Assembly (NCBI RefSeq): GCF_004138165.1
Contig: NZ_RYFF01000044.1
Span: forward strand, 1-43,228
DNA length: 43,228 nucleotides
Direction: 5' to 3'
Source: Candidatus Chloroploca sp. Khr17
Lineage (GTDB): Bacteria > Chloroflexota > Chloroflexia > Chloroflexales > Chloroflexaceae
Numbering within the stretch: position 1 is the stretch's first letter; the number at the start of each line of letters is the position of its first letter. Positions 6,745 to 30,567 of the stretch are shown here, piece after piece. The notes under the pieces are model-generated. The model was not told the origin of the DNA and ran no database searches. It saw only the letters and a list, made by a program, of their open reading frames with translations. The position numbers and the translations under genes were made by a program.

Positions 6745-6776
6745 GCGTTGCTCCTATAACCTGTGAATTACCCTAA

Positions 6777-6895
6777 GAGGCTGTCTGAAAAGGGTGTCAG
6801 CATCGTTCCCCACCACGTGGTGTGCCCTTGGAGTGCCGGCTTTAGCCGGCTAAAGCCGGCACTCCGAACCAACTCGTCGACTTTTCAGACAGCCG
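6777..6895 (+). mobile_element. MITE-like element A, copy 1
   Basis: A 119-base non-coding element with inverted ends GGCTGTCTGAAAAG (6779-6792) and its complement (6881-6894), flanked on both sides by CTAA (6773-6776 and 6896-6899), a 4-base target duplication. Inside are a perfect 36-base palindrome (6830-6865) and CACCACGTGGTG. A second copy in opposite orientation at 26856-26974 differs at only about eight places and has the same CTAA duplication. A CTAA (YTAR) duplication is what IS5-group transposases make, so an IS5-like enzyme elsewhere probably moves it. Confidence 0.85.
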
Positions 6896-6922
6896 CTAAC
6901 AGGTAGCGCACCTACGCTAAAA

Positions 6923-6983
6923 ACTTTGCGCCTTTGCGCCTTTGCGTCAAAACACCCGCCTTATTTGCAAGGTAGTGCTCCTA
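6923..6983 (-). repeat. CTTTGCG repeat with GCAAGGTAGTG tail, copy 1
   Basis: Begins with three units of the type CTTTGCGC followed by GTCAAAA, then a short spacer and the tail GCAAGGTAGTG...CCTA. The same head and tail are found at 41794-41856 and, diverged, at 39841-39893. The end of this copy supplies the TAG stop codon of the membrane protein gene 6981-9029. Confidence 0.6.
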
Positions 6984-9029
6984 AAACAGTTCTATCCGTC
7001 GCACGGTCAACGACTGCTCACTCTCCAACAGCAGATGAGTCTCGCCGGGGACGATCCGCAGCGGGATGCGTAGTAGTTGGACTCCAGGTTTTAAACTGAT
7101 CTGCTGCATACTATCTCCACCCAGGGTCAGGCGTAATGTGCCTGCTACCGGGCTGATGACGTCCATTTCAAGCACAACCTCGTGGGGCGCACTGCTATAG
7201 ACGATCAAAGAGGCCTGCTCGTGAAATTGGCGCTCTACGCTGGTCGTGCCAACTAGGTCGCTCCATCCTTCGCCAAGCCCGAGAAAGGGCACAGGGTTTG
7301 CCGGTTCGGCGAGGTGATACCGCAAAAATGAACTGCCCGGGATCTCAATCTGCTCAGGTGGTCCGTCGCTCGCGGCCTGGGCCACACGCACCAGGGTATT
7401 GTAACGCAATGCGCCACCTTCGCCGTGCAGCATCAGGTAGCGCACGTCAAAATAACCGAAAACACTTGGGGCAATCGCCGTCGGATCGGCGACGATGATG
7501 TCTGGCTCGGAGCGTGCATAGGCGAACATGCGCAACAGTGGGATCTGTTCAATGGTTGGGTAGGCTGGTTCTCGCGACAGATACCCGCCCATCAGCGGTT
7601 TCTGATGCACGGTCTGGTACAGCATATAGAGCGACCGTGTGCGCCAGTAGACGGGCACATGCATCACGGCGTAGGTCTCGGTATCTTCGCCCATCGCGGC
7701 GATCTGCGCTGGGATATAGACGCCCGTCAGCGGAAACGGCGCGCTCAGGTTCTCGAACACGATCAGCGCAATGAGGCTCGTCGTGATCAATCCCCTACCC
7801 CAGTTTGCCCTCGTTTGCCGCAGCAATACGCACACCCCGAAAGCCGCCGCGATGCTGAGCGCCAGCATCGTCACGCTGATAAACCTGATCGGGTAGCGCA
7901 CGATGTTGAGCAGCGGCAGTTCGGCCAGCAATGCCCCTGGCATCACCAACCCACTTGACCATCCGGCGATCTGCAAGACCGGCCCGAGCGCAAGCATGAT
8001 GAAGAAGGCCGCACTGACGATCCAGAAGCCATTCCGTCCTCGCCAGAGGCCCAATCCCGCCAGAACCAGGGTCACGAACCCGAGATACGCAACCTTGCTC
8101 TGCGTATGAATGGCTGCTTTGTAGCTCTGTAGTTGCGCTGCTGCCTGGCCCCAGAGCGGGTGCAACGGACTCGGTATCACCAGGTCAACCAGGTCGAGTG
8201 CGTGGTCACGTCGAAAGTTGACCCCTCCTTCGCTTACAACCGCCGGTGTCGCCGCGATTTCACGTGCCGTCAGGCTGATGGCAGGGGCGAGCAGGATCAG
8301 CGCCAGGCTGATGCTGATGACGAGCGGCATCACCACGCGTAGCTGCCGCCGCTGCCAGAGCATGACCAGGCTCTGCCAGCCCGCCCAGAGCAGCGCAAAA
8401 AGCGTGTAGTGCCAGTCAGCGAGGGCAGTTATCAGCAACCCCAGGCTCGCGAAGATGATCGTTGCCCTTCCAAGTTGGTCAACCACCCGATAAAACATCA
8501 AAATGGCTAGCGGCAGCGTCCATGCCGCCAGCAGATTGGTATGCGCCCCCATCGCCTGCGATACCAGATACCCACTCGACGCAAAGATGACCCCGCTGAT
8601 CAGCGCGGCCCCGTGCTGCATCTGGCTGCTTGCGCTGGTGTCTGGCTGGTGTGCCAGCACATACCGTGCCAGCGCATAGGTACACAGCCCGCTCAACGTC
8701 AGATTGATCAACACCGCGCTGTTAAACGCCACCACGAGCCCAAAAACAGCCTGAAGAGGCAACGTCAAGAGAAAATTGATCGGTGTCAGTGTATGCAACC
8801 AGAGGCTCGCGCCATCGGGATGAAAAAGCATTGCCGTATACCACGGCACCTGCCTGGTCAACAGCGCCGTCTTGAGCCACCAGAGATTCCAGAGGTGCTG
8901 CCAGCTATCGTAGACCTCGCCAGGAGCAGCCGCGCCAATCAACGCCGTCTGGAACTCACGTGCCAGCGGCCATGTCATCACTACCGCCAGCCCCGCATAG
9001 AGCAGCAACGCTGTCAGCCACCGTACCAT
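6981..9029 (-). CDS. YfhO/GT-C-like membrane protein with C-terminal beta module (paralogue 2)
   Basis: A 682-aa multi-pass membrane protein, clearly paralogous along its whole length to the one at 4546-6744: DSWQHLWNLWW near the N-terminus, FHPDG, LTPINF, and a C-terminal soluble module of 102 residues starting PFLGLGEGW at 581. The start ATG is preceded by AGAGGAG at a suitable distance. About 190 bases with a large hairpin separate it from the flippase gene upstream, and MITE A copy 1 separates it from its paralogue downstream. The pair looks like a gene duplication with later insertion of a MITE. Function as for paralogue 1: probably sugar handling at the outer face of the membrane. Confidence 0.75.
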   Translation of the reverse strand: MVRWLTALLLYAGLAVVMTWPLAREFQTALIGAAAPGEVYDSWQHLWNLWWLKTALLTRQVPWYTAMLFHPDGASLWLHTLTPINFLLTLPLQAVFGLVVAFNSAVLINLTLSGLCTYALARYVLAHQPDTSASSQMQHGAALISGVIFASSGYLVSQAMGAHTNLLAAWTLPLAILMFYRVVDQLGRATIIFASLGLLITALADWHYTLFALLWAGWQSLVMLWQRRQLRVVMPLVISISLALILLAPAISLTAREIAATPAVVSEGGVNFRRDHALDLVDLVIPSPLHPLWGQAAAQLQSYKAAIHTQSKVAYLGFVTLVLAGLGLWRGRNGFWIVSAAFFIMLALGPVLQIAGWSSGLVMPGALLAELPLLNIVRYPIRFISVTMLALSIAAAFGVCVLLRQTRANWGRGLITTSLIALIVFENLSAPFPLTGVYIPAQIAAMGEDTETYAVMHVPVYWRTRSLYMLYQTVHQKPLMGGYLSREPAYPTIEQIPLLRMFAYARSEPDIIVADPTAIAPSVFGYFDVRYLMLHGEGGALRYNTLVRVAQAASDGPPEQIEIPGSSFLRYHLAEPANPVPFLGLGEGWSDLVGTTSVERQFHEQASLIVYSSAPHEVVLEMDVISPVAGTLRLTLGGDSMQQISLKPGVQLLRIPLRIVPGETHLLLESEQSLTVRRIELF

Positions 9030-9090
9030 ACCAGAGACTCCTCTATCGCTCTATGCCTTGGGGTTGATCTGGGTAAGTGTTTACACTTCT

Positions 9091-9154
9091 CCTGGGAGCG
9101 CGGGCGGCTCGCCCGCATCCAGACCCGAGCGGGCGAGCCGCCCGCGCTCCCAGG
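9091..9154. repeat. Long GC-rich hairpin upstream of membrane protein gene
   Basis: Two perfect 26-base arms (9091-9116 and 9129-9154) with a 12-base loop, built of GGGCGGCTCGCCCG-type palindromes. There is no T-run for a classical terminator on the minus strand. A smaller inverted repeat AAGTGTTTACACTT precedes it at 9075-9088. It sits in the gap between the flippase gene and the next membrane protein gene. Confidence 0.75.
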
Positions 9155-9216
9155 GTGGTACGTTCCCCCAAGTCTGAACAGATCCTGATCTGGCAGGGTT
9201 TGCCAGATGAACCCCT

Positions 9217-10872
9217 CTACAATACACGCAGCAACCAGCGCTTGAGCGGCAGGCGCGTCTGCTCAAGCTGACGCCGATCTTGCGGGTCGAGGCCGCCGGT
9301 GAGCCGTAGTACAACCGCAAAGAGGGCGGCCCCGGCCACGACCACGCCGAGCACCCAGAGCCCCAGCCAGAGCCGGGTGGCAATCGTTGCATCGTCCGCG
9401 GGTATCGGCAGCCAGTCGCGCATCAGCAGCAGCCCTGCGCCCATCGCCCCGGTTGCCAGACTCACCCGCAGCGTGAAATTCCACGGCCAGCGTAGTCCCA
9501 GCAAACGATAGCCACTCGCCGTTGCCCAGAAGCCCGCCGCAACCCGTGCGCTGCCAAAGGCGAGGGCCACCCCGGTGATGCCCAGGATCGGTGGCAACCA
9601 GATCGCCATTGGCACAATGACGACCAGGGTCAACAGGCGTGAAACAATGATAATGCCCAGTTTTTCATGCACAATCAGCGCATTGTGCGCCGTCGTTAGC
9701 AGACACTCAAGAAAGAGGCACGGCACAAGCACCCACACAATCGGGGCCGCCGCGAGATACTGGGGCGACAATACTTTCAGCGCCGGTGCCGTTAAGAGCA
9801 CGAGTCCCACGCCGCCTGGTACCATCAGCAATACCTGGAGCCGCACGAGTGACTGGTAGGCTCCGTTCACGGTGCCGCCCTCGCCGGCACGAACGCGGGT
9901 AAAGAGGGGCACCTGCACACCGACCATCGGCGTGTAGAGGTAACTCAGCGCCATGCGTACCAGCGACGTGCCCGCCCAGAGCAGCGCCACATCGCTGACA
10001 TCTTGCGCCAGAAAGATCGCAAACCCGGCCCCCGCCACAAAATCGGTGATCGTCATTAAAAACGACACCCCCGAGTAACGAATAAAGCCTGGCGGCAAGG
10101 CTGCACGCAGGCTCACCGCGTCTTGTGGCCCACGCGCTGACTCTGGCCGCACGCGATCCTCCTCACGCCAGAGCGCGACAACCCGCCACAGCCCACTGAT
10201 GACCACCAGGGTCGGCGCAATGAGCATCGCCAGCAACACCCCCAGGATATCCCAGCCGGCCAGGAGCGCGGCGGCACTCAACAGGGGCGGCAAGAGGCGT
10301 GCCGCCAAGTCAATGCTATTCCAGGCTCGTTGACGAAAGAAGCTCGCCAGGTAGGCCATCAGCATATCATAGCAGACCCCAAGAAAGAGCAGCACCACCA
10401 CAGACGCAATAATCAGGGCGCTGTGATTTGTCAGAAAGTCTAGGGCCGCCGCCTGTGCGTTGATGTCCAGGCGCGTATCATTTGTCACCTGATCCTGCAA
10501 AAAGCCGAGGTACGGCCCACTCATCACGATCAGGCCGCCGCTAAAGAGCAAGAGTAGTGCCATTTGCGCGGCAAAGACGATTGTGAGCAGTCGCAAGACC
10601 GCCCGTGTGCCACCAGCCTGCATCGTCTCGGGGATATATTTGGGCAGGGCGCGTGATGTGCCAAGATCAATCGCCGTCCCTGCGCCATTATTCGTATTGC
10701 TAATCAAGGCCAGCAAGCCAAAACTTGCCGGCGACAGAATATTCAGCTTCAGCAGGTTGGTCACCACCTCGGCAACCATGCGCACCGGCACAAAGAGCGT
10801 ATTCCAGAAGACCGCATTCGAGACGCGGCTCGCCAGGGATGGTGGTTTGCTGGTGACAGGATCCGAGGCCAT
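9217..10872 (-). CDS. Wzx-like polysaccharide/oligosaccharide flippase (MOP superfamily)
   Basis: A 551-aa protein with about 14 hydrophobic segments, in the family that flips lipid-linked oligosaccharides to the outer face of the membrane. The N-terminus reads SNAVFWNTL...VRMVAEVV and then GLLALISNT...AIDLGTSRALPKYI, the usual first-helices pattern of Wzx/RfbX proteins. I place the start at the ATG 10872 (MASDPVTSK): it lies 4 bases after the methyltransferase stop, whereas a longer reading would overlap that gene by 20 codons. The close spacing implies co-transcription. Its presence is the strongest sign that this locus makes a lipid-linked glycan for export. Confidence 0.85.
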   Translation of the reverse strand: MASDPVTSKPPSLASRVSNAVFWNTLFVPVRMVAEVVTNLLKLNILSPASFGLLALISNTNNGAGTAIDLGTSRALPKYIPETMQAGGTRAVLRLLTIVFAAQMALLLLFSGGLIVMSGPYLGFLQDQVTNDTRLDINAQAAALDFLTNHSALIIASVVVLLFLGVCYDMLMAYLASFFRQRAWNSIDLAARLLPPLLSAAALLAGWDILGVLLAMLIAPTLVVISGLWRVVALWREEDRVRPESARGPQDAVSLRAALPPGFIRYSGVSFLMTITDFVAGAGFAIFLAQDVSDVALLWAGTSLVRMALSYLYTPMVGVQVPLFTRVRAGEGGTVNGAYQSLVRLQVLLMVPGGVGLVLLTAPALKVLSPQYLAAAPIVWVLVPCLFLECLLTTAHNALIVHEKLGIIIVSRLLTLVVIVPMAIWLPPILGITGVALAFGSARVAAGFWATASGYRLLGLRWPWNFTLRVSLATGAMGAGLLLMRDWLPIPADDATIATRLWLGLWVLGVVVAGAALFAVVLRLTGGLDPQDRRQLEQTRLPLKRWLLRVL

Positions 10873-10876
10873 ACGG

Positions 10877-11716
10877 TTAGTTTCCCTTTGTGAGGGCAAG
10901 TTCAAACATGCCCACATACCAGCGCCGTTGCGCACGATACGCTACCCCTTCGAGCCCGACTGCCCGCAGCGCCGTCCGCACTGCTCGTCGCGACGCCTTC
11001 CGGCTCACAAACGTACCGGCCTTCAATTGCGCCTCGCGCAGATCGTAGACGCGAAACCCATACTGGTTGCAAAGACGCACAAATTCGGGGTAATGAAAAT
11101 AGTGCATCGCTGACAGGCGCTGCATATCGCGGAAAGCCGCGCCCTGCTTGCTCCGCCCGCGCCAGCCAATGATCTGCTCGGCAACCGGGCGCGGCAGCCA
11201 GTTGATGCCTGCCAGATGGTAGTGCGGGTCGATCCAGGCGCGCCGATTGATCGCCGTCAGCAGAACCGTACCTCCGGGGCGCAGCACTCGCGCCAATTCA
11301 CCAAGCACCCGCGCCGGATCTTGCACATGCTCGATCACATCCCACGCCGTCACGGCCTCAAAATGGGCCTCAGGGAAGGGCAGCGTCTCGCCTGCCGCGT
11401 TGAGCACCGGCACATGCAAGTTATAGCGCGCCGCACGCAACGCGATAATCTGGCAATAGGCCGGATTATATTCACAAGCCGTCACCTGTGCCCCCTCACG
11501 TGCCGCCGCCACCGCAAACCCGCCCATCCCAGCCCCAAGATCAAGCAGACGCAACCCGCCAAGCTTCCCAACTGTATCGCGTAGCATCGCCAGCCGCTCG
11601 GCCTGGTACTGCTCCTGATGAAGCCGTCGCTCCCGCCACTGCGCATAATCACGCCGCCACTGCATATGCATCAACCACGGCTCGATGGCCGTCTCAAGTT
11701 CTTGCATGACCCCCAT
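10877..11716 (-). CDS. Class I SAM-dependent methyltransferase
   Basis: A 279-aa soluble enzyme of the Methyltransf_11/UbiE type. Motif I is DLGAGMGGFA (59-68), an acidic residue ends strand 2 (ACEYN), and the post-II region reads AWDVIEHVQDPARVL then LRPGGTVLLT. The C-terminal third (YHYPEFVRLCNQYGF and following) is a family-specific lid. The substrate is probably a sugar or lipid-linked glycan precursor because the flippase gene follows after only 4 bases. Two ATG codons, at 11716 and 11707, are both possible; neither has an ideal ribosome site. Upstream lie 200 bases of hairpins. Confidence 0.88.
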   Translation of the reverse strand: MGVMQELETAIEPWLMHMQWRRDYAQWRERRLHQEQYQAERLAMLRDTVGKLGGLRLLDLGAGMGGFAVAAAREGAQVTACEYNPAYCQIIALRAARYNLHVPVLNAAGETLPFPEAHFEAVTAWDVIEHVQDPARVLGELARVLRPGGTVLLTAINRRAWIDPHYHLAGINWLPRPVAEQIIGWRGRSKQGAAFRDMQRLSAMHYFHYPEFVRLCNQYGFRVYDLREAQLKAGTFVSRKASRRAVRTALRAVGLEGVAYRAQRRWYVGMFELALTKGN

Positions 11717-11755
11717 CCCCCGCTTCTCGTGTGTAGGGCTGTCGCCCTAACCCAT

Positions 11756-11808
11756 GCTTGTGCTGGCGAAAACGGCCAACTTCGCTGGCCGTTTTCGCCA
11801 GCACAAGC
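11756..11808. repeat. 23-bp-stem hairpin
   Basis: Arms at 11756-11778 and 11786-11808 pair perfectly around a 7-base loop. It stands between the membrane protein gene 11917-14025 and the methyltransferase start. Smaller hairpins flank it: GGGGCCGCAGGCCCC at about 11818-11832 and GCGCCTGAGGCGC at 11861-11873. Similar structure and length recur at 20527-20567 and 43069-43117, so this is probably a genome-wide hairpin class, some copies serving as terminators. Confidence 0.75.
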
Positions 11809-11889
11809 GAAATTCTTGGGGCCGCAGGCCCCAAACCCCCAGCCGGAGGCTTACGTTCATGCGCCTGAGGCGCACCCGCCCCCATCCCC

Positions 11890-11928
11890 CGCGTGGAGTG
11901 AGGGGTCGCAGACCCCTCACTCCACGCG
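11890..11928. repeat. 18-bp-stem hairpin overlapping the end of the membrane protein gene
   Basis: Perfect arms at 11890-11907 and 11911-11928 with loop GCA. The stop codon (11917-11919) and the last three codons of the minus-strand membrane protein lie in one arm, so this structure would form in the mRNA immediately at translation end. It may act in transcription termination or mRNA stability, although no U-run follows. Confidence 0.65.
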
Positions 11929-14025
11929 CAAAGCATACACCGCCATACCAAGCTCCCGCGGCGTGCCCTCTTCGGGGGTTACGCTGGTGCGTAGTTCAAA
12001 TTCATGCATTCCTGGCGGTACCTGGATGGTGAATTGATAGGCGCGCCTTGCCCGATAGAGTTCAAACGAGGCGAGCATCTTTTCATTGTTGATGGCCCAC
12101 AACTCCACCTGTTGACCGTCGCTCCGCCCTTCCGCCTGGATCGTCAGGGTCAACGTGGTCTCCTCGTTCGTTGGGTTGACCAGAAAGAACCCGGCCACGC
12201 CCTCACTCCAGCGCCACTGGTAGGCCTCGTTCTGCTCAAAGTCGTGCCATCCCTCACCCAGAAAGACAAAGGGTGCGCAGCGATCCTGGTGCAACGGCAG
12301 TTCATAGGCCCGAAACCGTCCATCATCATACCACGGTGTCAGGTCACTCCCGAGACGTGCCATCACCGCACGCGCCCGGTCTTCGCCCCCTTCACGCGTG
12401 AGCTTCGGCTCGATCACGACATACCGTAGTTGATAGTAACATTGCATCGCCGCCAGCGCATCGCCATCGAGGCTGATGATGTCGTCTTCCGGCAAGACCA
12501 GCATCCGTCCGAGGTGTTTTGGCAATGGGCTATAGAGCAGGGTTGGGTAATAGGGTGGACGCGCCACATAGCCGCGCAGGATCGGTTGCCCATGCACAAT
12601 CTGGTTGATCAGCGTGCGGCTGTTCGTATTGTTCTCGATCGGCAGATCCACCACCACACCCGGTTCCCGTGCGGCAAGCTGCTGGTAAACCTCGGCCCGC
12701 TCCATCGTCATTGTCGTGCGGATCGGCGGCAAGAGCTCGACAAAAGCGAGCACGCCAATGACGCCCAGGACGATCCCGAAGGTACGTGGGCGCATCCGTT
12801 CACGCATGCGCGCCACCGCGAGCGCCGCAAAGATCGTAAAGACCATGATCGTCAGCACCCCAAAGAGATTCGGTCGGCGCGCGGTGGAAAGACCGGGCAG
12901 CGCTTGCAGCAGTTGATAGGGCATCGGGATGCCCGTCTCGTTGCCGAGAATATAGAGGATCGGCCCCATCGCAAAGAGCCAGGCGATAAGCGCGACGACA
13001 ATCAGCCGCCAGTGCTGGCGGCCATACCAGACCATGCCCAGCAACCCCAGTATGCTCAGCACCCAGCCGGCTGCTGTGTATGCGCCTTCAACCAGGCCGT
13101 AGGGGGCCATATCCACCAGGAATTGCTCGGCTTGCATCGACCAGAAGGGATGGCGCCCCGACGGAAAAAAGAGCCCCAGCAGATCCGCCGAATAGCCCTG
13201 TGTATAGAGTGCCCAAAGATCCAGTGGCAGGTTCGGGTCGCTCAACTCGTTGCGCAGCATCAGGATCAAGGGGAGCGTGAACAGCAGGGCCAGGCCCCCA
13301 AAGAGGCCATAACGCATAATCACACCCAGCGGTTGCTCGGCGCGGATCAGGCTCACCACGGCCCACACCACCCCAAAGAGTACCGTGACCAGGGCCCAGT
13401 ACCAGTCGGTATAGAGCACCGCCCCGAAGGCGAGCGCCGTGATCGGAACCAACCACCAACTCGTCTTGCGACTGAGATAGATCAGCGCGACCACCGCGAA
13501 CACAAGCCATTGCATCGTCACAAAATTGAGTTGTCCCGAGTCAAGTTTGGCAACATGAAACGGACTTGCCGTCAGCAATACGCCAGCCACAAATGGCCCC
13601 AGTACCCCTGGCGCAAACGCCCGCGCCAGCAGAAAGCCGGCGTACCCCGTCAACATGATCGCCACGATTGCTGTCACATTGTAGGCCGCCACTGGCCCGA
13701 GCGTCAGCGTCACCGGCACGGCCGTCAAGACGGCCACCGGATTGATCGTCTGCAGCACCATCTGCAAACCCTCGGGATAGTAGAGCAGCGGCGTAAAGAA
13801 GGGATTCATCCCATGCTGGACCGCATACCCTGTCCACCAGAAATTCCAGATATTCTGTGGCGCATCGGGCGTCTTGATATAAAAATAGAGATTATTGCCC
13901 GCCGTGAAATAGTGACTCTGCAGCGACAGAATCGCCGGCCAGGTCAACCACAGCGCCAGCACAGCATACGCGGCGAGGATGCCAAGATGTGTGCGCAGGC
14001 GTAATCGTGTCGGTGCTACTTCCAT
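11917..14025 (-). CDS. YfhO/GT-C-like membrane protein with FLGEGW/WRWS C-terminal module (paralogue 3)
   Basis: A 702-aa multi-pass membrane protein related to the other two YfhO-like proteins: DAPQNIWNFWW near the N-terminus, YYPEG, INPVAVL, and later PFVFLGEGW followed by YQWRWSEGVAGFFLVNPT in a soluble beta-rich C-terminus. The reading frame stays open to 14118, but the extra 31 codons only translate CTTTGCG repeats (TQRRKDAK, TQRRKGAK), so I choose the ATG at 14025 (MEVAPTRLRLR). In that case the repeat itself supplies an AGG seven bases before the start. It follows the DUF2079 gene by 89 bases. Likely role: glycosyl transfer at the outer membrane face, inferred. Confidence 0.74.
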   Translation of the reverse strand: MEVAPTRLRLRTHLGILAAYAVLALWLTWPAILSLQSHYFTAGNNLYFYIKTPDAPQNIWNFWWTGYAVQHGMNPFFTPLLYYPEGLQMVLQTINPVAVLTAVPVTLTLGPVAAYNVTAIVAIMLTGYAGFLLARAFAPGVLGPFVAGVLLTASPFHVAKLDSGQLNFVTMQWLVFAVVALIYLSRKTSWWLVPITALAFGAVLYTDWYWALVTVLFGVVWAVVSLIRAEQPLGVIMRYGLFGGLALLFTLPLILMLRNELSDPNLPLDLWALYTQGYSADLLGLFFPSGRHPFWSMQAEQFLVDMAPYGLVEGAYTAAGWVLSILGLLGMVWYGRQHWRLIVVALIAWLFAMGPILYILGNETGIPMPYQLLQALPGLSTARRPNLFGVLTIMVFTIFAALAVARMRERMRPRTFGIVLGVIGVLAFVELLPPIRTTMTMERAEVYQQLAAREPGVVVDLPIENNTNSRTLINQIVHGQPILRGYVARPPYYPTLLYSPLPKHLGRMLVLPEDDIISLDGDALAAMQCYYQLRYVVIEPKLTREGGEDRARAVMARLGSDLTPWYDDGRFRAYELPLHQDRCAPFVFLGEGWHDFEQNEAYQWRWSEGVAGFFLVNPTNEETTLTLTIQAEGRSDGQQVELWAINNEKMLASFELYRARRAYQFTIQVPPGMHEFELRTSVTPEEGTPRELGMAVYALRVE

Positions 14026-14118
14026 CTTTGCGCCTTTGCGTCTTTGCGTCAAATTATCAGCCAACGTGGGCAAGCCGCCCTCCTCAACATCCTTTGCGTC
14101 TTTGCGCCTTTGCGTCAA
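14024..14118 (-). repeat. Two CTTTGCG repeat arrays between membrane protein genes
   Basis: Arrays at about 14024-14051 and 14090-14118, each of three to four TTTGCGC/T units ending in GTCAAA. On the minus strand the right one starts exactly at the TGA of the DUF2079 gene (14115-14117), and the left one ends at the ATG of the next gene, supplying its ribosome-binding AGG. They are related to the copies at 6923 and 41794. Confidence 0.7.
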
Positions 14119-15638
14119 AACCGGACGTGCCGAAACAAAATCAAATCATCTTCTTCGTGGATCACTTCCCAGTTCGGATCACTCCGCAATCGCCCAACAA
14201 TATCGTTGCCCTGGGCGGCTTGGTCGCGCAGGCCCGCCGCACGCAGATCCAGAAACGCATACTCGGCGGCCTCAATTGGGTGGTGCATCTGCCCGCCCGG
14301 GATGAAGTAGATCGCTTCGCGGGGCAACAGGTGCGGGGCTAGGAACGAGGTCGCGGCAACCGTCGCATCCGGCGGGAACATCGCCTTCATCGCCTCCATC
14401 AAGGCGACCCGCTCGGGCCGCTCGGGGTTGCGTACCGCCGAGATGACCGGGTTTTTCAGGGGCAGGTTGATCAGTCCAACGAGCAGCACCATGCCAACGA
14501 GCAATCCCGGGACCCAGCTTTGAACCCGCTTGCCCTGCCAGCGTTGGGCCTGCTCAAAGAGCCACGCTGCGCCGTAAATGGCTGCAATAATCATGCCAGG
14601 AACAACAAGAATTTGATACTGCTCGGTGATGACATACTGGTAAATCCGGTTCGAGAGCAGGTTGATGCCGAAGATCGGGGCGGCAAGCAAGAGCTCCCGT
14701 GGCGCAAAGAGGGGCAAAAAGAGCAAGCCCGCAAACATCAGCACCAGATACTTGATCTTGGCCGGTTCAAAGAGAAAGAAAAAGATCTCGACTGGGTGCG
14801 TGACAATATTGATGATAATATTCGGGATTCCGCTTCCCAGGTGCAGATAATAACATGCCTGTGGGCTGACCCCGCACGGCCACATAGCGTTGTAGTCGCG
14901 GTTCAGATCAAAAGGCACCTCGATCTTTTCTGGGGTAAAGCCTTCATTATAAAACTGCGGTGTGATATAGGTAATGGCAACATAAAAATAGATCAGCCCC
15001 GCAAGCATCGGCACCAGCGCGTAGGCCCACGGCATGCGGCGCAGCACGGCGTACATCCCAAAGGCGACCACCACCAGCGCGGCGTCGGTACGCGTCAACA
15101 TCGCCAACCCGAGCAGCAGCAGGTACGGCCAGAGTTGCCGCCGCGTCAGGAACCAGAAGGCCCAGATGAGCAAGACAAGCCCGGGGATGCGCGGCTGAAA
15201 GGGCGCGGCCATGCCCATAAATTGCGTCGTTGGGTAGAGCAGATAGACCGCCGCGAAGGCTACCCCCGCCCACGCATTGCTTAGGCGGTCACGGGCAATC
15301 AGATAGACCGGAATGGCCGCCGAGACGAGCAAGAGGCTCTGCACAACGATCAGGGTGTAGGCCGACGGCACCACCGCATAGAAGGGGATCGCCGGCAGAA
15401 AGCCCAAGGCGACATCAAGCCCCATGAAAGTATCAGTGAAATTGTAGCGTGAGACCAGTAAAAAACGACCCTGTGTCGTACCCCAGATCGGCATGTGAAA
15501 ATCTACCATGTCGAAGCCGTGGCCCCAGTAGGAATATTTATAGGCGCCTGCCCCAATCAGTGCGGCACTCACCAGCGCCATCAGCACGATCAGCACGATG
15601 ACTGCTTGTTTGCTCTTCATGCGCTCTTTCTGCCCCAT
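14115..15638 (-). CDS. DUF2079 family membrane protein
   Basis: A 507-aa multi-pass membrane protein. After the first membrane helix comes GHGFDMVDFHMPIW, matching the conserved acidic loop of DUF2079 (the FD-x-x-x-F-x-x-x-x-W pattern), and later HPVEIFFFLFEPAKIKYL and LSNRIYQ...QYQ, also usual for the family. DUF2079 proteins resemble GT-C enzymes but have no proven reaction. I took the ATG 15638, which has AGGA five bases upstream; the ATG 15620 is an alternative. A hairpin lies directly upstream. It belongs to the minus-strand glycan locus. Confidence 0.8.
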   Translation of the reverse strand: MGQKERMKSKQAVIVLIVLMALVSAALIGAGAYKYSYWGHGFDMVDFHMPIWGTTQGRFLLVSRYNFTDTFMGLDVALGFLPAIPFYAVVPSAYTLIVVQSLLLVSAAIPVYLIARDRLSNAWAGVAFAAVYLLYPTTQFMGMAAPFQPRIPGLVLLIWAFWFLTRRQLWPYLLLLGLAMLTRTDAALVVVAFGMYAVLRRMPWAYALVPMLAGLIYFYVAITYITPQFYNEGFTPEKIEVPFDLNRDYNAMWPCGVSPQACYYLHLGSGIPNIIINIVTHPVEIFFFLFEPAKIKYLVLMFAGLLFLPLFAPRELLLAAPIFGINLLSNRIYQYVITEQYQILVVPGMIIAAIYGAAWLFEQAQRWQGKRVQSWVPGLLVGMVLLVGLINLPLKNPVISAVRNPERPERVALMEAMKAMFPPDATVAATSFLAPHLLPREAIYFIPGGQMHHPIEAAEYAFLDLRAAGLRDQAAQGNDIVGRLRSDPNWEVIHEEDDLILFRHVRF

Positions 15639-15650
15639 CCCTATCCTGGG

Positions 15651-15673
15651 TGCGGGGGCCTCTGGCCCCCGCA
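15651..15673 (-). terminator. GC-rich hairpin between GT39/TPR gene and DUF2079 gene
   Basis: Perfect 10-base arms with loop TCT, just before the DUF2079 start and about 180 bases after the end of the GT39/TPR gene. On the minus strand TTTTT is upstream, not downstream, of the stem, so it is not a textbook intrinsic terminator; attenuation is equally possible. Confidence 0.4.
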
Positions 15674-15726
15674 CCTAAAAACTTTGGTCACAGGCTACTT
15701 GGTAGTCTGTAACGTAAATTTCATTG

Positions 15727-15814
15727 CCTTGCCGCCCCCCTCCCAACCTCCCCCCGTTGGGGGGAGGATTCCGGCTCCCTCCCCCAGCGGGGGAGGGCTG
15801 GGGAGGGGGCAACA
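15727..15814. repeat. G/C-run dispersed repeat, copy B
   Basis: Second copy of the repeat at 1006-1086, same orientation; the right half with four G-runs (15789-15809, runs of 5, 3, 4, 5) is identical, including the following GCAACA. It too is enclosed by a short inverted pair, here GTCTGTAACGT (about 15705) and ACGTTACAGAC (about 15840). It follows the stop of the GT39/TPR gene. Confidence 0.8.
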
Positions 15815-15852
15815 GGCTCGCAAAACATCACAAAACGTACGTTACAGACCAC

Positions 15853-20483: not shown

Positions 20484-20526
20484 ACGCTAACTCTTACTCC
20501 GTAGGGTTGTCTCAATACGATTGTGC

Positions 20527-20567
20527 CGCTGGTCAACAAGCCAGCTACGCTGGCTTGTTGACCAGCG
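20527..20567. repeat. 18-bp-stem hairpin in the divergent gap
   Basis: Arms 20527-20544 and 20550-20567 are perfect, loop CTACG. The gap 20484-20803 lies between the minus-strand glycan operon and a plus-strand cluster, so both start here; the hairpin would be in the leader of the minus-strand mRNA rather than at an end. I found no convincing promoter boxes in the remaining about 240 bases. Confidence 0.7.
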
Positions 20568-20803
20568 ACGAAAAAAAGCTTGAGGGTCGCGGACCCCCAG
20601 GGCAACGACAAGACACTTGATTGTACCAGAAATGCCAAGGCCCGCAACCCGTACGGGCGAAGCAGTCAGGGCTGATGCACGGATTGCACGACTGTGGTAG
20701 CATGATGCCACCCCGCCGCATGCCTCCGTTGAGAGGATCCTGGTCGTTTTGATCGCTAGGTGCCTTGCGGTGGCAGCGCAATCGAGAGGAAGGAAGCAAG
20801 TTG

Positions 20804-21049
20804 ATGACATCTCCAACCAAGCATTTTTTTGACATTGACCTCCAGCATGGCGTGTTGCCGGTCTCGAAAGCGGCCAGTTCGCTGGCATCAATGATCCGGC
20901 ACTCGGCCCAGAACCAGCGCCCCGTCGTGATTACGCAGAAGGGGAAACCAACGGCGGTTTTGCTCTCCATCGAGTTGTTTGACGCGCTGCGAGCCCGGGT
21001 GGCGGCAGCCAACAAGCCCGCTGCTCAGCCGCAGGAGGCGGAGGGCTAG
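20804..21049 (+). CDS. Orphan Phd/YefM-family antitoxin
   Basis: An 81-aa protein with the Phd/YefM N-terminal DNA-binding fold: VLPVSKAASSLASMI, then RPVVITQKGKPTAVLLS. In this family the N-terminus binds the operator and the C-terminus wraps a toxin such as Doc, YoeB or RelE. The C-terminal part here (RVAAANKPAAQPQEAEG) is short and alanine-rich. I chose the ATG at 20804, which has a GAGGAAGGAAG site eight bases upstream; a TTG 13 codons earlier is less likely. No toxin gene follows: the next gene, 75 bases on, is a pRiA4b-type protein. It could be a solitary regulator. Confidence 0.8.
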   Translation: MTSPTKHFFDIDLQHGVLPVSKAASSLASMIRHSAQNQRPVVITQKGKPTAVLLSIELFDALRARVAAANKPAAQPQEAEG

Positions 21050-21124
21050 GGGTCAGCCCCGCCCCTGGTGGCGCGAGCAGATTGATCAGCGCTGTTCTGC
21101 GCGAAGTTGCCTATGGAGGTTCAG

Positions 21125-21685
21125 ATGCCCCGTAAAGCCGCTGCGGTTCCGAGCCGCGTCTATCAACTGAAGATTACCCTCAAGGACATCAAGCCGCCGA
21201 TCTGGCGGCGGGTTGAGGTTGCCGACACTATTACGCTGGCAACGCTTCACACGATCATCCAGGCCGCAATGGGTTGGACAGACTCGCATCTGCATATGTT
21301 CAGTGTCGGACGGGTCGCCTACGGTGTGCCGCACCCGAACGATGACGAGGATGTCCGCGATGAGCGTCGGTTCAAGCTGAACGATGTGCTCACCGCGCCT
21401 AAGCAGAAGCTGAGCTACGAGTATGACTTTGGCGATAGTTGGACCCACGAGGTGCAACTTGAGAAGGTGCTTGCCCCTGAGCCGGGGGTGAGTTATCCGC
21501 GTTGCACGGCAGGGAAACGGGCCTGCCCGCCTGAGGATTGTGGCGGGGTCTGGGGTTACGCCAATTTCCTGGAGGCGATCAGCGACCCCGAGCACCCCGA
21601 ACACGAGGATCTGCTCGATTGGATTGGCGGTGAGTTCGACCCCGAGGCGTTTGACCTCGCTGCGGTCAATGCGATGTGGCGTTAG
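21125..21685 (+). CDS. pRiA4b ORF-3-like family protein
   Basis: A 186-aa protein matching the plasmid pRiA4b ORF-3 family: YQLKITLKDIKPPIWRRVEV at the N-terminus, TLATLHTIIQAAMGW, DSHLHMF, then YEYDFGDSWTHEV, CPPEDCGGVWGY and a C-terminal EFDPEAFD. The conserved Tyr/Asp/Gly/Asp/Trp block and the Cys/Asp-Cys-Gly-Gly block are intact. The family's biochemical role is unknown. The ATG at 21125 has GGAGG five bases upstream; two earlier start codons in frame lack this. The SWIM gene starts 20 bases after the stop, so they are probably co-transcribed. Confidence 0.9.
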   Translation: MPRKAAAVPSRVYQLKITLKDIKPPIWRRVEVADTITLATLHTIIQAAMGWTDSHLHMFSVGRVAYGVPHPNDDEDVRDERRFKLNDVLTAPKQKLSYEYDFGDSWTHEVQLEKVLAPEPGVSYPRCTAGKRACPPEDCGGVWGYANFLEAISDPEHPEHEDLLDWIGGEFDPEAFDLAAVNAMWR

Positions 21686-21705
21686 GTGAAACTGGGGAAG
21701 TGACG

Positions 21706-23556
21706 ATGGACGATAAGCCATCCAGAGGCGAGCCAGTTCAACGGCCTTCTTTGAGTGAGGCGCAGATCCGTCAATATGCGAGTGCCGAGTCGTTTGCGCG
21801 GGGCAGGCACTATGCAGAGGAGGGTGCGGTTGGCCCGCTGGTGTTGCGTGGCGATCTGCTGCGGGCCGAGGTTGAGGGCAGCGCATATGAGCCTTACCAG
21901 GTGACCGTCAGGATCGATGCTGGCGGGGTGCGTGCTGCCAGTTGTTCGTGCCCCTACGATTGGGGCGGCTGGTGCAAGCATATCGTGGCAACCTTGCTGG
22001 TGTATGCCAAGGCCGAGACAGACGCGATCGAGGTGCGTCCGCCGCTTGCCGTGCTGCTTGCCGGGCTCGAGCGCGACCAGCTTGAGGCCCTGGTGCTCCA
22101 TATGGCTGTCCACGATCCGGAACTGACCGAGCGCATCGATGCCATGATTGGTGCGTCGATCGCTGCCCCCGTTGCTTTGCCCAGTTCAGAGGTCGGTTCG
22201 GTCACAGGTCGGCGTACGACAGTTGATGTGCCGGCCTTCCTCAAGCAGATCCGTCGTATCTTCCGCGCCGAGCGCGCTGATGACTATCTGGCTTATGAGC
22301 GCATCCTGGAGAATCTGGATCCGCTGGTAGAAGAGATCCGCAGCTTGCTCGATGACAACGCTGCCCATGATGCGTTGCCATTGATCGAGGCGCTGACCGA
22401 TGAGTATACCGAGGCCTGGATCGCTTACGACGACTCCGACGGCGAGTTGGGAGCCTTCTTTTTCAATCTGGGCGAGCTCTGGGCCCTGGCGCTGCTCGGG
22501 GCTCCGCTCAAAAAGGCGGAGTTGAATAAGTGGCGCGAGCGGCTAGAGGGGTGGGCCGCGAGCGCCGAAGCGTATGGCTGCGATGGCTTGAACCTCGCGC
22601 TTCAGGCCGCAGATGAGGGCTGGAGTGAGCCGTGGATTGATGCGGCGATCCTCGGTGAGGCGAGGCCCGATGCCGTGCCGATCGTCCCTTACGATAGTGA
22701 CTTGTTGGCGATCCGCCTGCGCATCCTCGAGCGTAGCGGCCACGCCCAGGAGGCGCTGAATCTAGCGGCAGCGGTGGGGATGTATCGCGAGCAGGTGCTG
22801 CTGCTGGTGCGCATGGGCCGTGTCGCCGAAGCGGTCGCGTTGGGCCGCCAACACTTCACCAACGCAATGCAGGCGTTTAGCCTCGCCTCTGCGCTGCACG
22901 AGCGTGGCGAACGAGAGCAAGCACTGGCGATTGGTGAGCACGGGCTGAGCCTTGGTGGAACCGACACGAGCGACTACGCGGAGCAGCAGGCGCGGGCGCG
23001 TCTGGCCGCCTGGTTGGTCGATCTGGCCGCGAGCCAGGGGCGCATTGATCTCGCTCTGCATGCCGGGGCCGAGGCGCTGCGGGTCACGCCCGAGTTGGGC
23101 CTGTACCAGCGCCTGGCGGAACTCGCCGGTGCCCACCCCGAGGCCTGCGACGGAGGCTGGCCCGCGCTGCGCGAGCAACTCCTTGCGGCTCTACGCACCA
23201 GCAAGAGTTGGATGGTCGCGGGTAAGATCGACATCTTTCTTCACGAAGGACTGCTTGACCACGCGATTGCTGCCCTCGGAACCCACCCGAACAGCGACGA
23301 CCTGGTGCGAGTGATGGATGCCGCGACGCAAACCCATCCAGACTGGGTCATCAGAGCGGCGATCTCTCGTGCGACGGCGATCATGGATGCTGGCAAGGCC
23401 CAGCACTATGACGCGGCGGTCGAATGGCTCTGCCGGGCGCAGGCTGCCTACAAGGTGGCGGGCCGCCTGCCCGATTGGAAGGCCTATTTGCAGAGTTTGC
23501 GGCTGAAGCATGGGCGGAAGCGCAAGTTGATAGGGCTGCTGGATCGGCAATTTTGA
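21706..23556 (+). CDS. SWIM zinc-finger protein with long helical C-terminus
   Basis: A 616-aa cytoplasmic protein. Residues 80-92 (CSCPYDWGGWCKH) give the SWIM signature C-x-C-x7-C-x-H, preceded by the usual beta strands. SWIM domains bind zinc and mediate DNA or protein contacts. The remaining about 500 residues are alpha-helical with alanine-rich repeats (LALQAADEGWSEPW, AEQQARARLAAWLVDLAAS) resembling TPR-like hairpins, as in many bacterial SWIM proteins. I chose the ATG at 21706, after GGGGAAG; the earlier GTG overlaps the preceding gene. No enzymatic motif is seen. The neighbours suggest a regulatory or stress role, but nothing specific. Confidence 0.88.
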   Translation: MDDKPSRGEPVQRPSLSEAQIRQYASAESFARGRHYAEEGAVGPLVLRGDLLRAEVEGSAYEPYQVTVRIDAGGVRAASCSCPYDWGGWCKHIVATLLVYAKAETDAIEVRPPLAVLLAGLERDQLEALVLHMAVHDPELTERIDAMIGASIAAPVALPSSEVGSVTGRRTTVDVPAFLKQIRRIFRAERADDYLAYERILENLDPLVEEIRSLLDDNAAHDALPLIEALTDEYTEAWIAYDDSDGELGAFFFNLGELWALALLGAPLKKAELNKWRERLEGWAASAEAYGCDGLNLALQAADEGWSEPWIDAAILGEARPDAVPIVPYDSDLLAIRLRILERSGHAQEALNLAAAVGMYREQVLLLVRMGRVAEAVALGRQHFTNAMQAFSLASALHERGEREQALAIGEHGLSLGGTDTSDYAEQQARARLAAWLVDLAASQGRIDLALHAGAEALRVTPELGLYQRLAELAGAHPEACDGGWPALREQLLAALRTSKSWMVAGKIDIFLHEGLLDHAIAALGTHPNSDDLVRVMDAATQTHPDWVIRAAISRATAIMDAGKAQHYDAAVEWLCRAQAAYKVAGRLPDWKAYLQSLRLKHGRKRKLIGLLDRQF

Positions 23557-23583
23557 CGAGCTCCTGAGGCGAAAGACAGGAAA

Positions 23584-24489
23584 ATGAAACCCTTCCAAGT
23601 CTATGCTTATGGTGTCATCGCTTCCAGCGAACTGCATCTGCTGAGCATGGCGTTCCCTTCACCCGATAGTTACGCCGAGATTGCCGAAAGCCATTTCATG
23701 ACCGGAGGCGAGGCTCTGAATTCGGCCATTGTCTTGAGCCGCCTGGGGGTAAGTGTCCAACTCGACGGCAACTGGATCGGCGCTACGCCAATTGGCGAGC
23801 GCTTGCTGGCAACCATCGCTCGTTACGGCATTGACACGCAGCGCTTGCGGGTCGAGCCTGGCTTTGCCGGGGTGCGGGAAATCGTCTTTTCCGACGAGCG
23901 TACCCGAACGATCTTTGGCAACTACGTTGATCTCTTGTCCACGACGCGGAAGTGGAATATCCCCAGGAAAGACGATCTCGCCAAAGCGCGGCTCGTCTGT
24001 GTTGACCCGCCGTTTCAAGCCGAAAGCGCCCTGGTCGGGGCGTACGCCGTCGAGTTGGGCGTGCCCTTTGTCTCGATTGACTGCCCGTACGACCAGGCTT
24101 TGGCCAGTAGCGCCGCCGCCGTGATCATCTCGGGGGAATTTCGCAACCGAGCCTATCCCCAGGTCGCATTACCCGAATTGTTTGCCGCCTACCAGCAGCG
24201 TGCGCAAGGGTTGGTTGTGCTTACCGTGGGTGATGAAGCCATCTTGTATGGCCGCAAGGGGGCGCCTAGCAAGCAGTTCAAGCCCTATGCAGTCAACGTG
24301 ATCGACAGTGCCGGGGCCGGGGATTCATTTCGGGCCGGCGTCATCTATGGCATGTTGCAGCAGTGGAGCGACGAGCAAACCATCCAGTATGCGGCAGCCG
24401 TCGCAGGCATGGTGTGCGCCAGCTTCCCCGGCGTGCTCAACAGCCCCACCCATGCCGAAGTTATGCGCTTTATGCAAGGGGAGCGGTGA
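23584..24489 (+). CDS. PfkB-family carbohydrate kinase
   Basis: A 301-aa ribokinase-like enzyme. The N-terminal GGEALNSAIVLSRLG takes the place of the family's G-G-x-x-x-N-x-A sugar-binding motif and VIDSAGAGDSFRAGVIYG (from about 239) holds the catalytic Asp247 and anion hole. The N-terminus begins directly with the strand AYGVIASSELHL. Family members phosphorylate ribose, fructose, adenosine and related compounds; the exact substrate cannot be read. It follows the SWIM gene by 27 bases with no terminator between, so it may belong to that operon, and it ends convergently 49 bases before DUF389. Confidence 0.88.
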   Translation: MKPFQVYAYGVIASSELHLLSMAFPSPDSYAEIAESHFMTGGEALNSAIVLSRLGVSVQLDGNWIGATPIGERLLATIARYGIDTQRLRVEPGFAGVREIVFSDERTRTIFGNYVDLLSTTRKWNIPRKDDLAKARLVCVDPPFQAESALVGAYAVELGVPFVSIDCPYDQALASSAAAVIISGEFRNRAYPQVALPELFAAYQQRAQGLVVLTVGDEAILYGRKGAPSKQFKPYAVNVIDSAGAGDSFRAGVIYGMLQQWSDEQTIQYAAAVAGMVCASFPGVLNSPTHAEVMRFMQGER

Positions 24490-24538
24490 TCTATGGCTGC
24501 GATCTATCGATCATGCCTGGGTTGCGGCAGACACTCGC

Positions 24539-25552
24539 TCAAGGCCCTGGCGCACTGGCCTCTTTGGTGCTGATCTGACGTAACTTGAGATTGACCGGGC
24601 GACGGATCTCGTTCGCCAGTTCTTCAGCGAGCGACTGCGCCGGCAGAAGCGGATCATTTCCCTCGATAGTGGCATAGAACTGATCACCGCTGATGCTGAC
24701 CGCGATCACGTCATACGTCGTACCCTCCAGCCAAGCCCTGACGATATCCGTCGCGTTATTGATGGTCAGACGCCGATCAAGTGCCTCGTAGCTTGTAATG
24801 GTCAAGGGCAGGCTAACGATCAGAATGCCGACCGCAAAGATCATGAAGCCCTTGCGCCGTAGCTGGATCTGATTGGGGGCAGCGGCCAGTTTTCCGAGGC
24901 CAACCAGCCAGAGCACGACCCCCCCAGCGAGCAAAATGGCGAGACAGTTGGTCAGAAAGAGCACAAGCGCGCCCACAGCAGCGTTCAACTCACTCTGCTG
25001 GAGGGCGATCCCAACGACGCAGAGCGGGGGGACGAGCGAGATCGCGATGGCGACCCCACCAATCGAGTCGGCGATCTCATCGCGTGAAATAATGAAAGCC
25101 CCTGCCGCCCCCGAGCCCAGGGCGGTGAGCAGGGCGTAGAGGTCGGGCTGAATGCGCGACGTGATCTCACTATTGCTTGCAAAGGCAATTCCGCCGTCGG
25201 GGACCAACGTCGCGAGCAAAAAAGCCGTGAAGATTACGCTGAATACGCCCAGAATGACCAGGCCAGATGCCGCGAGCGCTCGCGGCAATGAACCCATCAC
25301 CACCGCAGCGGTGGTTGCCATAATTGGCCCCATCAACGGCGCCACGATCATCGCACCGATGACGGTTGCCGTCGAAGAGGAGAGCAGACCGTAGGTCGCG
25401 ATCAAGGTCGCCAGGAGCAGCAGCACGAAAAAGTTGAACAAACGCCGCTGGCGCAAAGGCCCTTCGATAAAGAGTTTGCTTTCAAACGTATCCAAGTACG
25501 CCGGGTCGAAACCAAAGCCGCTTGCTTGTCTGGTGGCTGAGGGTAAAGCCAT
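24539..25552 (-). CDS. DUF389 family membrane protein
   Basis: A 337-aa membrane protein of the DUF389 (TIGR00341-like) family. Residues 1-35 are cytoplasmic (FESKLFIEGPLRQRRL), then TYGLLSSSTATVIGAMIVAPLMGPIM, the family's signature helix with conserved Gly, Ala and Pro, and about five further hydrophobic segments including SIGGVAIAISLVPPLCVVGIAL. The soluble C-terminus of about 90 residues contains EALDRRLTINNATDIV. No function has been established for the family. The ATG has AGGAT upstream and a good promoter lies 57 bases before it. It converges with the PfkB gene. Confidence 0.92.
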   Translation of the reverse strand: MALPSATRQASGFGFDPAYLDTFESKLFIEGPLRQRRLFNFFVLLLLATLIATYGLLSSSTATVIGAMIVAPLMGPIMATTAAVVMGSLPRALAASGLVILGVFSVIFTAFLLATLVPDGGIAFASNSEITSRIQPDLYALLTALGSGAAGAFIISRDEIADSIGGVAIAISLVPPLCVVGIALQQSELNAAVGALVLFLTNCLAILLAGGVVLWLVGLGKLAAAPNQIQLRRKGFMIFAVGILIVSLPLTITSYEALDRRLTINNATDIVRAWLEGTTYDVIAVSISGDQFYATIEGNDPLLPAQSLAEELANEIRRPVNLKLRQISTKEASAPGP

Positions 25553-25608
25553 TGTTCACATCCTTAAGTTATCCCATCTCCGATGGCAGAATTTGGCTTG
25601 CAGATGGT

Positions 25609-25636
25609 ATTATACCAAGTCCCATAAAGCTCGCAA
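25609..25636 (-). promoter_or_regulatory. Promoter of the DUF389 gene
   Basis: On the minus strand TTGCGA (25631-25636) and TATAAT (25609-25614) are 16 bases apart, and TGG precedes the -10 box, making it an extended -10. Transcription would start near 25602, leaving a leader of about 50 bases. Confidence 0.6.
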
Positions 25637-25907
25637 CGCACCCGTAGGCGCAGCAGCCTATGTGCCTCCCTCATCGGTGACCACAAGTTCGACCATGGCG
25701 AATCGTCCCTTTACACTTGCATTTTGTTTGACTCTCTTCGCTTATTTTATCAAGGTAAGCCAGGAAGCCGTTGTCCGAGCCGAGGAGTCGATTTTTAATC
25801 CTGGGTTGAGTCATATTCAGGGATTGCATTTACCAAGAAGATGACTCGCTCGGGTTGCTGAGGTTGCTCAGCTTTGCTGAGGGGGGTGGACGATCACGGT
25901 TGCGCTC
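25637..25907. other. Intergenic stretch without recognised features
   Basis: Together with 25553-25636 this makes a 355-base gap between two divergent genes. It is noticeably AT-richer than the genes around it. An open frame runs across part of it (reaching back into DUF389 antisense) but its translation shows no family or domain. I see no repeat, RNA gene or clear plus-strand promoter here. Confidence 0.5.
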
Positions 25908-26855
25908 GTGGTGCTCTTTCTCCCATTGATTGCCCTGGCTGTGACGGCGCTTACGCTATTGGGCCTGTTCCTGGTTCGACGCTGGTTTGAACGACGCGAT
26001 GAACGCACTAAGGTTCCCTGTGCACATTGCCAGACCCCGATCTTCCCAACGGCCCTCTTCTGCCCACATTGTCGTCAAGCTAACGAGCATCCCCGTCAAG
26101 TGGGTGTCTTTGGTCAGGCACGCAATACACCTGCCCTGGATCGGACGGCTCACCGGGTGCAGTTGATTGGGCGCAAGCGCTGTCCAGTCTGCGCAACCCG
26201 TCTGCCTGCCAAAACCATCCGCCAGGGTTGCCCGAGTTGCCATACAGTCACATTTAACGATCTCAGTGAGGCCAATGTCTTCTTACGTTCGCTCGATCAG
26301 AAGCTTCCCCTTACCCTGGTTATCTGTAGTGTGCTCGGTTTCGTCCCGTTGCTTGGCCTGGTACCGGGAATTATCTACTATCGCGTGAGTCTGATCGCCA
26401 GCCTGCGTGCTTATATTCCCACTTCGATTGGTTGTTTCACCCGCTGGGGTTGGCGCTTCGCTGCAATGTTTTTGATTATGCTCCAACCCTTTTTCCTGGG
26501 GTGGTTGACTTTACCCGCCATGGCTCTGATGAACTACTTTGTCTATCGCCGGGTTTTGCAAAGCATGATGGGAGGTCTGCCCCAACCAGTAACGGTAGCG
26601 AGCGCTCCCGCAGGTATGTATACGGCCATGGCAGGAGGTGCAGGCAGCGCACCTATCCCGGTTTCTTTGCCGCCCGCAGCCTTGCCCGAGATAACACAAC
26701 CCGTCCCGCTGGCTGGAACAGATCCGCGTATAGCACTCAATCCGTCGCCCCCAAAGCGGGTGTGCGTTGCCTGTGGTCAAGCAAACCCGGCGACGTATCG
26801 TTTCTGTACAAGCTGTGGAGCCACCCTGGAGGCTGATCCACCTGAGCCAGTCTAA
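25908..26855 (+). CDS. Membrane protein with three zinc ribbons
   Basis: A 315-aa protein of mixed architecture. A membrane helix lies at about 3-23. Two zinc ribbons follow: Cys38/41/52/55 and Cys92/95/108/111. Residues about 135-215 contain two to three membrane helices (SVLGFVPLLGLVPGIIYY and following). After a proline/alanine linker the C-terminus has a third ribbon, Cys286/289/300/303 (VCVACGQ...FCTSCG). No enzyme motif is present. Ribbon-membrane proteins of this type are common and uncharacterised. The start is uncertain: the frame opens after a TGA at 25878 and the first start codon is GTG at 25908. Its stop codon lies within the target duplication of a MITE that follows immediately. 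Confidence 0.75.
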   Translation: MVLFLPLIALAVTALTLLGLFLVRRWFERRDERTKVPCAHCQTPIFPTALFCPHCRQANEHPRQVGVFGQARNTPALDRTAHRVQLIGRKRCPVCATRLPAKTIRQGCPSCHTVTFNDLSEANVFLRSLDQKLPLTLVICSVLGFVPLLGLVPGIIYYRVSLIASLRAYIPTSIGCFTRWGWRFAAMFLIMLQPFFLGWLTLPAMALMNYFVYRRVLQSMMGGLPQPVTVASAPAGMYTAMAGGAGSAPIPVSLPPAALPEITQPVPLAGTDPRIALNPSPPKRVCVACGQANPATYRFCTSCGATLEADPPEPV

Positions 26856-26974
26856 GTGGCTGTCTGAAAAGTCGACGGGATGCTCTGGAGTGCCGGCTTT
26901 AGCCGGCTAAAGTCGGCACTCCAAGGGCACACCACGTGGTGGCGAACGATGCTGACACCCTTTTCAGACAGCCT
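26856..26974 (-). mobile_element. MITE-like element A, copy 2 (inverted)
   Basis: Same 119-base element as at 6777-6895 but in reverse orientation, with ends GGCTGTCTGAAAAG (26858-26871) and complement (26960-26973), and again flanked by CTAA on both sides (26852-26855 and 26975-26978). The left CTAA contains the stop codon of the zinc-ribbon gene, so insertion occurred exactly at the gene end without harming it. Its internal palindrome has one mismatch. No transposase gene is present. Confidence 0.85.
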
Positions 26975-26980
26975 CTAATA

Positions 26981-27089: not shown

Positions 27090-27099
27090 TACTAAGTGC

Positions 27100-30315: not shown

Positions 30316-30413
30316 GCTAGAAACCCGCGCTTGCTTGGCTCCTTTGTCCTACAGCAAGCGCCGTGGTCTGTACCGTACGTTTGCTGATACCAACGGGGGT
30401 TTCGACACGCACA

Positions 30414-30484: not shown

Positions 30485-30567
30485 AAGCCCGAGAGCAGAA
30501 AACTTTTGTTACAGACTACTAGTAGCTTGCAAGCAGGCAACCCGTGACTACATTGGGTGGGGCAAGC

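Follow-up and report, generated by a model that had tools for sequence, protein, structure and literature searches.

The two inverted repeats of the window (the whole 43,228-nucleotide contig NZ_RYFF01000044.1, C154 among the 171 contigs of the 6,376,501-base draft genome of Candidatus Chloroploca sp. Khr17) belong to a MITE family that was in all likelihood moved in trans by an insertion sequence (IS) of the IS1031 type. As part of this model, and with the same high confidence, we regard the pair itself as non-autonomous MITEs, which are short, have inverted ends and a target duplication, occur in many copies and hold no transposase. What was observed is the ends, the duplications and the copies, the presence and absence of elements between species, and an IS that agrees with the MITE in its ends and in its kind of duplication. 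The host is a green filamentous phototroph. The kind of element (a gene-less MITE with an IS5-type mover) is ordinary; its 36-bp palindromic core, shared with two repeat families of this genome that have different ends, is unusual.

That the window holds two inverted copies was confirmed by a repeat search, which paired 6776-6897 with 26855-26976 in inverted orientation at 93%, and by direct comparison of the copies, which differ at 8 of 120 positions (93.3% alike). Their length, originally given as 119 bases (6777-6895 and 26856-26974), is corrected to 120 bp (Table 1). Both copies are bounded by ends that match the 16-bp consensus GAGGCTGTCTGAAAAG, and the 14-base end GGCTGTCTGAAAAG has four matches in the window, all of them exact despite the two mismatches permitted (shuffles: mean 0.33, maximum 2). 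A 120-bp element with such terminal inverted repeats has no room for a transposase. Copy 1 is flanked by the minus-strand ORFs 4546-6744 and 6981-9029; copy 2 starts directly after the TAA stop codon of ORF 25908-26855, so that its left duplication is that stop codon.

Table 1. Positions in the window of the two MITE copies and of their parts.
Feature	Positions	Strand
MITE copy 1, 120 bp	6777..6896	+
Copy 1, left target duplication TAA	6774..6776	
Copy 1, right target duplication TAA	6897..6899	
Copy 1, terminal inverted repeat, GAGGCTGTCTGAAAAG	6777..6792	+
Copy 1, second terminal inverted repeat, 1 difference from the 16-bp consensus	6881..6896	-
Copy 1, shared core, a perfect 36-bp palindrome	6830..6865	
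MITE copy 2, 120 bp, inverted relative to copy 1	26856..26975	-
Copy 2, left target duplication TAA, also the stop codon of ORF 25908-26855	26853..26855	
Copy 2, right target duplication TAA	26976..26978	
Copy 2, terminal inverted repeat, 1 difference from the 16-bp consensus	26856..26871	+
Copy 2, second terminal inverted repeat	26960..26975	-
Copy 2, 36-bp core, one change from the perfect palindrome	26887..26922	

Further copies exist in the genome, as the original prediction had anticipated: with at most one mismatch the 14-base end gave 49 matches, versus 1 when the pattern was reversed as a control. In the loci fetched from this genome, 19 elements carry these ends on both sides; identical 3-bp flanks were present in 11 of them (2000 shuffles: mean 3.5, maximum 10) and absent in 8. 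Over all genomes loaded, identical 3-bp flanks were found in 46 of 73 elements (shuffles: mean 16.1, maximum 26), and TNA stood on the left in 64/73 and on the right in 64/73; the loci that hold them were retrieved by similarity or by end patterns, which makes the sample non-random, and of 77 rows the 4 of at least 300 bp had been dropped beforehand (an IS of 865 bp and three spurious pairs, of 871, 379 and 690 bp). The sampled stretches of Ca. Viridilinea mediisalina had identical 3-bp flanks in 21/24 and TNA on the left in 24/24. The 4-bp CTAA duplication first proposed does flank both copies on both sides, but the true duplication is the 3-bp TAA, following the TNA rule: the C is on the right side the last base of the element itself and on the left side a matter of target preference, and a fourth base agrees in only 29 of the 46 elements that have the 3-bp match. 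In three elements of this genome, 234-236 bp long, the core is interrupted by an additional sequence that has its own inverted ends.

An IS5-like transposase and a full-length IS with the same ends had been predicted as the source of movement. Such an IS was found in the sister species Ca. Chloroploca mongolica (locus L147); the Khr17 assembly shows IS ends only. The IS is 865 bp long, has the ends of the MITE with TTA on both sides, and holds a single intact ORF (260 aa from ATG) that scores above the Pfam cut-offs for the IS5-type DDE transposase domains DUF4096 (PF13340; 103.4 bits, cut-off 34.3), DDE_Tnp_1 (PF01609; 93.1, cut-off 23) and DDE_Tnp_1_2 (PF13586; 46.6, cut-off 29.2). Three-bp duplications are made by ISL2 elements too. 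To judge from its TNA duplication, length and ends, the IS probably fits the IS1031 subgroup, for which a 3-bp TNA duplication is the rule in the sections available of PMC12016507. ISLrh, an IS5-family element of this subgroup described there (857 bp, ends GAACCTGTCTAGTATCT, target TNA), resembles it in length, in the GA..CTGTCT ends and in the 3-bp TNA duplication, and the transposase domains of the C. mongolica IS are of the IS5 kind; unlike ISLrh, which has two overlapping ORFs according to the same sections, it has one continuous ORF.

In the Khr17 assembly such an IS is represented by a left end common to contigs C51 and C73 and by a right end common to C85 and C147, which can be read as a C-terminus resembling that of the C. 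mongolica transposase; all four ends lie at contig breaks. The body of a transposase of this type was not found in the assembly, where the best match was a different protein (25% identity, E 5e-7), nor in the two Viridilinea genomes with near-full-length copies (G013 and G024). Collapse and loss of the repeat during assembly would account for the absence from Khr17. Other transposases of this genome (1 match to PF13340 and 11 to PF01609) were rejected as partners: none of the 12 loci has the 16-bp end at three mismatches or fewer, and one of them (L086) has it at four. The transposase of an IS5-family, IS1031-type IS of about 865 bp would bind the 16-bp ends common to IS and MITE and would insert the 120-bp element at TNA, mostly inside CTNAG, duplicating 3 bp. 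That the transposase of this particular IS was the mover is suggested by 16 bp and the TNA, since MITE and IS have only their ends in common and the inside of the MITE is unrelated to the IS.

With copy 1 as query, matches were obtained in 10 of 80 genomes, Khr17 included. Among the matches listed, near-full-length relatives occur in Chloroploca and Viridilinea only, i.e., in Khr17, in the two sister species of the same genus, Ca. C. mongolica (G001) and Ca. C. asiatica (G002), in Ca. V. mediisalina (G013) and in a further Viridilinea (G024); the remaining genomes matched the core or one end. Copies may be missed in these searches, because 40 of 108 candidates were scored in one search and at most 10 matches were taken per genome in the other. 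A 27-base pattern scanned over GTDB contigs, a scan in which the Khr17 records were possibly not covered, gave 30 stretches in four species (17 in Ca. V. mediisalina, 6 in Ca. V. halotolerans, 5 in Ca. C. mongolica and 2 in Ca. C. asiatica). The end pattern was present in 21 of the 80 genomes, with 475 matches in Ca. V. mediisalina and 0 for the control, and additional genera of the family have elements that bear these ends but differ in length. The genome paper of Ca. Chloroploca asiatica does not contain the words "transpos", "insertion sequence" or "MITE" in its main text; no paper was found that links MITEs with IS1031 and the IS5 family; in the literature on Chloroploca, Chloroflexi MITEs, IS5 subgroups and mosaic or shared-core MITEs, taken mostly from outside subscription journals, no description of this MITE family was found, and 16 letters of the core had no match in the literature searched.

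Recent movement of the window pair, which its high similarity had suggested, is not supported. Among 45 pairs of own copies (the 10 copies of 118-122 bp out of the 19, also used for regional divergence) the pair is tied second to third (median of all pairs 87.5%); the likeness of copy 1 to copies in both sister species is 93-94%, and the genes around, aligned to these species, are about 89-94% alike. The age of the window copies is probably close to that of the separation of the Chloroploca species. Later activity of the family is possible, given that another Khr17 copy (C1:77016) is 98% like a C. mongolica copy at another place on another contig. Both sister species have the matching flanks of C1:77016 but lack the copy between them; the site is not a base-exact empty site, because the short spacer in the sister species differs and the flanks in Khr17 are CAA, not TNA. 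At the insertion point of copy 2, the matching C. mongolica gene ends with CTAAGTG exactly there, and beyond it the sequences differ, which gives one half of an empty site. Where Khr17 has about 2.48 kb comprising copy 1 and ORF 6981-9029, both sister species have about 93 bases.

The repeats could also be sites of structured RNA or DNA (terminator, mRNA end or protein site) kept by selection, instead of selfish elements, which we consider improbable. The predicted RNA folds are strong (z -7.4, -7.1 and -8.3 for three folds), copy 2 follows a stop codon directly, and the core changes somewhat less (15/360) than the arms (29/370 and 17/150); however, such folding is common to all elements that combine inverted ends with a palindrome, and the TNA duplications and the absence in sister species fit transposition. 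Rfam gave no match in the window at the gathering cut-off. The 700-base regions that surround the two copies gave no promoter-like site; each has one terminator-like site, located outside the element. As RNA, the elements would fold into a strong stem according to these predictions, and a slight effect of copy 2 on the 3' end of the upstream-gene transcript is possible because of this stem and of its position right after the stop codon.

It had further been suggested that the facing copies promote inversion of the 20-kb interval between them. The copies are indeed inverted, 120 bp long and 93% alike, but they are short and differ at eight positions, and no sign of inversion was seen in either sister species over the stretches aligned: C. 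mongolica matches the window from 119 to 20653 on one contig and in one direction, with gaps (25837-26858 is forward as well, on another contig), and C. asiatica matches from 119 to 20505 in one direction. On this synteny, which covers up to about 20.66 kb (contig breaks near 20.66 and 23.56 kb), we reject an inversion system as very improbable. That the inverted repeats and their CTAA borders arose by chance has a negligible probability and is refuted by the end counts (49 versus 1 in the control) and by the duplications, well above the shuffles (46/73 versus a mean of 16.1).

Transposition of a MITE family by an IS1031-type IS remains the preferred reading, and comparison with known short repeats places the family as follows, as far as the cited papers are covered by the extracts consulted. 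Correia/NEMIS elements of Neisseria (PMC10969869, PMC3733652) are likewise short and non-coding, with inverted ends, a target duplication and RNA folding; they differ in ends, host and size, and the centre here is a palindrome common to other repeat families. TIMEs and mosaic non-autonomous transposons (PMC4133298) are also small, non-autonomous and part of mosaic structures; unlike TIMEs, which have Tn3-derived ends, the elements here share the centre, not the ends. REPs (PMC3733652) are short palindromes in many copies per genome as well; they are not tied to the interior of a MITE, and the likeness is one of palindrome and copy number, apart from the GTAG/CGTC tag and the RAYT gene.

The loci loaded from Khr17 contain 29 distinct copies of the core, which by one recognisable end (two were not required) fall into this MITE family (A, 14 copies), family B (8; ends like CTATAGCAGTCCT, TA at the borders) and family C (7; putative ends near AACGTACGTTTTC), with none left over. 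The TA borders of family B presumably point to an IS630/Tc1-like mover. The exact 36 bases occur in 5/14, 5/8 and 1/7 copies of A, B and C, respectively. The 20-bp heart of the core has 17 distinct exact copies in these loci versus 21 counted in the genome, so at least four lie outside the loaded set and could stand outside the three families. Among own copies, symmetry was found in 19 to 26 of 26 at each pair over the 36 bp, and in 3 to 13 of 26 outside; in Ca. V. mediisalina it extends a few bases beyond the 36 bp. In genus g5, B-like ends lie beside 10 of 11 cores, and the core arms differ from those of Khr17 by matching changes on both sides (e.g., GGAGTCACGG with CCGTGACTCC); a further locus (L226), from an unlisted genus, has a B-type case as well. 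Cores that received no family label were 2/15 in the sister species, 1/40 in Ca. V. mediisalina and 1/11 in genus g5. Over 400 Chloroflexota genomes the heart was found in 6, from 3 of 224 genera (control pattern: 1 genome).

All four complete B elements found by their ends in Khr17 loci hold the core, and two elements with C-like ends (L300 at 6538 and the window at 30374) are without it. Similarly, the MITE ends occur without the core (e.g., L038, with TGA on both sides) and the core occurs without these ends, and therefore ends and centre have separate histories. We tentatively suggest, with rather more doubt than confidence, that MITE families with unrelated ends, and hence presumably unrelated transposases, have passed the 36-bp palindrome between them as a transferable module, perhaps via repair of hairpins cut at extruded palindromes. 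The exchange might proceed by insertion of a mobile palindrome or by conversion after hairpin cleavage.

The mobile elements of these phototrophs have hardly been described so far, and the family adds a lineage-restricted repeat to them. If the suggestion about the palindrome is true, the MITEs of these phototrophs would evolve by combining sets of ends with interchangeable palindromic centres, which would stay alike within a genome yet keep their symmetry, and they would offer a natural system for palindrome exchange and the upkeep of symmetry in bacteria.

The 36-bp palindrome at the centre of the MITE is also contained in two further repeat families of the same genome, the ends of which are unlike those of the MITE (loci L251-L266). 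In three MITE copies of ~235 bp (L072, L073 and L074), this core is interrupted by a sequence bearing inverted ends of its own, and similar ends flank different fillings at L033 and L267. An element of 135 bp in the window, with ends like those of the core-bearing family C, lacks the core and is filled by a different palindromic sequence.

MITE copy 2 is immediately adjoined by a second stretch with inverted ends. A region of ~2.5 kb, including an ORF for which the Pfam search returned no match, is absent from both sister species (Ca. Chloroploca mongolica and Ca. Chloroploca asiatica). Other short repeats were found in the window, several of them palindromic, and the sister genomes hold many copies of these; repeats of a CTTTGCGCC unit likewise occur at many sites there.

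Positions and inverted ends of the repeats and neighbouring features
Feature	Position	Inverted ends
36-bp MITE core	window 6830-6865 and 26887-26922	
Core-splitting sequence	L072, L073, L074	TGGTCTTYCAG and CTGGAAGACCA
Element without core	window 30374-30508	C-like
Stretch adjoining MITE copy 2	window 26979-27091	TACTACAGTTGTAG and CTACAACTGTAGTA
Region absent from sister species	window 6719-9200	
ORF in this region	window 6981-9029	
CTTTGCGCC-unit repeats	window 6920-6983, 14022-14121, 41791-41854	
Other short repeats	window 1009-1087 and 15736-15814; 9079-9181; 11734-11863; 32668-32803	

The Ca. C. asiatica copy of the IS (L149 960-6588, G002:C85), the presumed mover of the MITE, is broken by a stretch which encodes a 999-aa Tn3-type transposase and a second protein of 306 aa of the phage-integrase type (both by Pfam).
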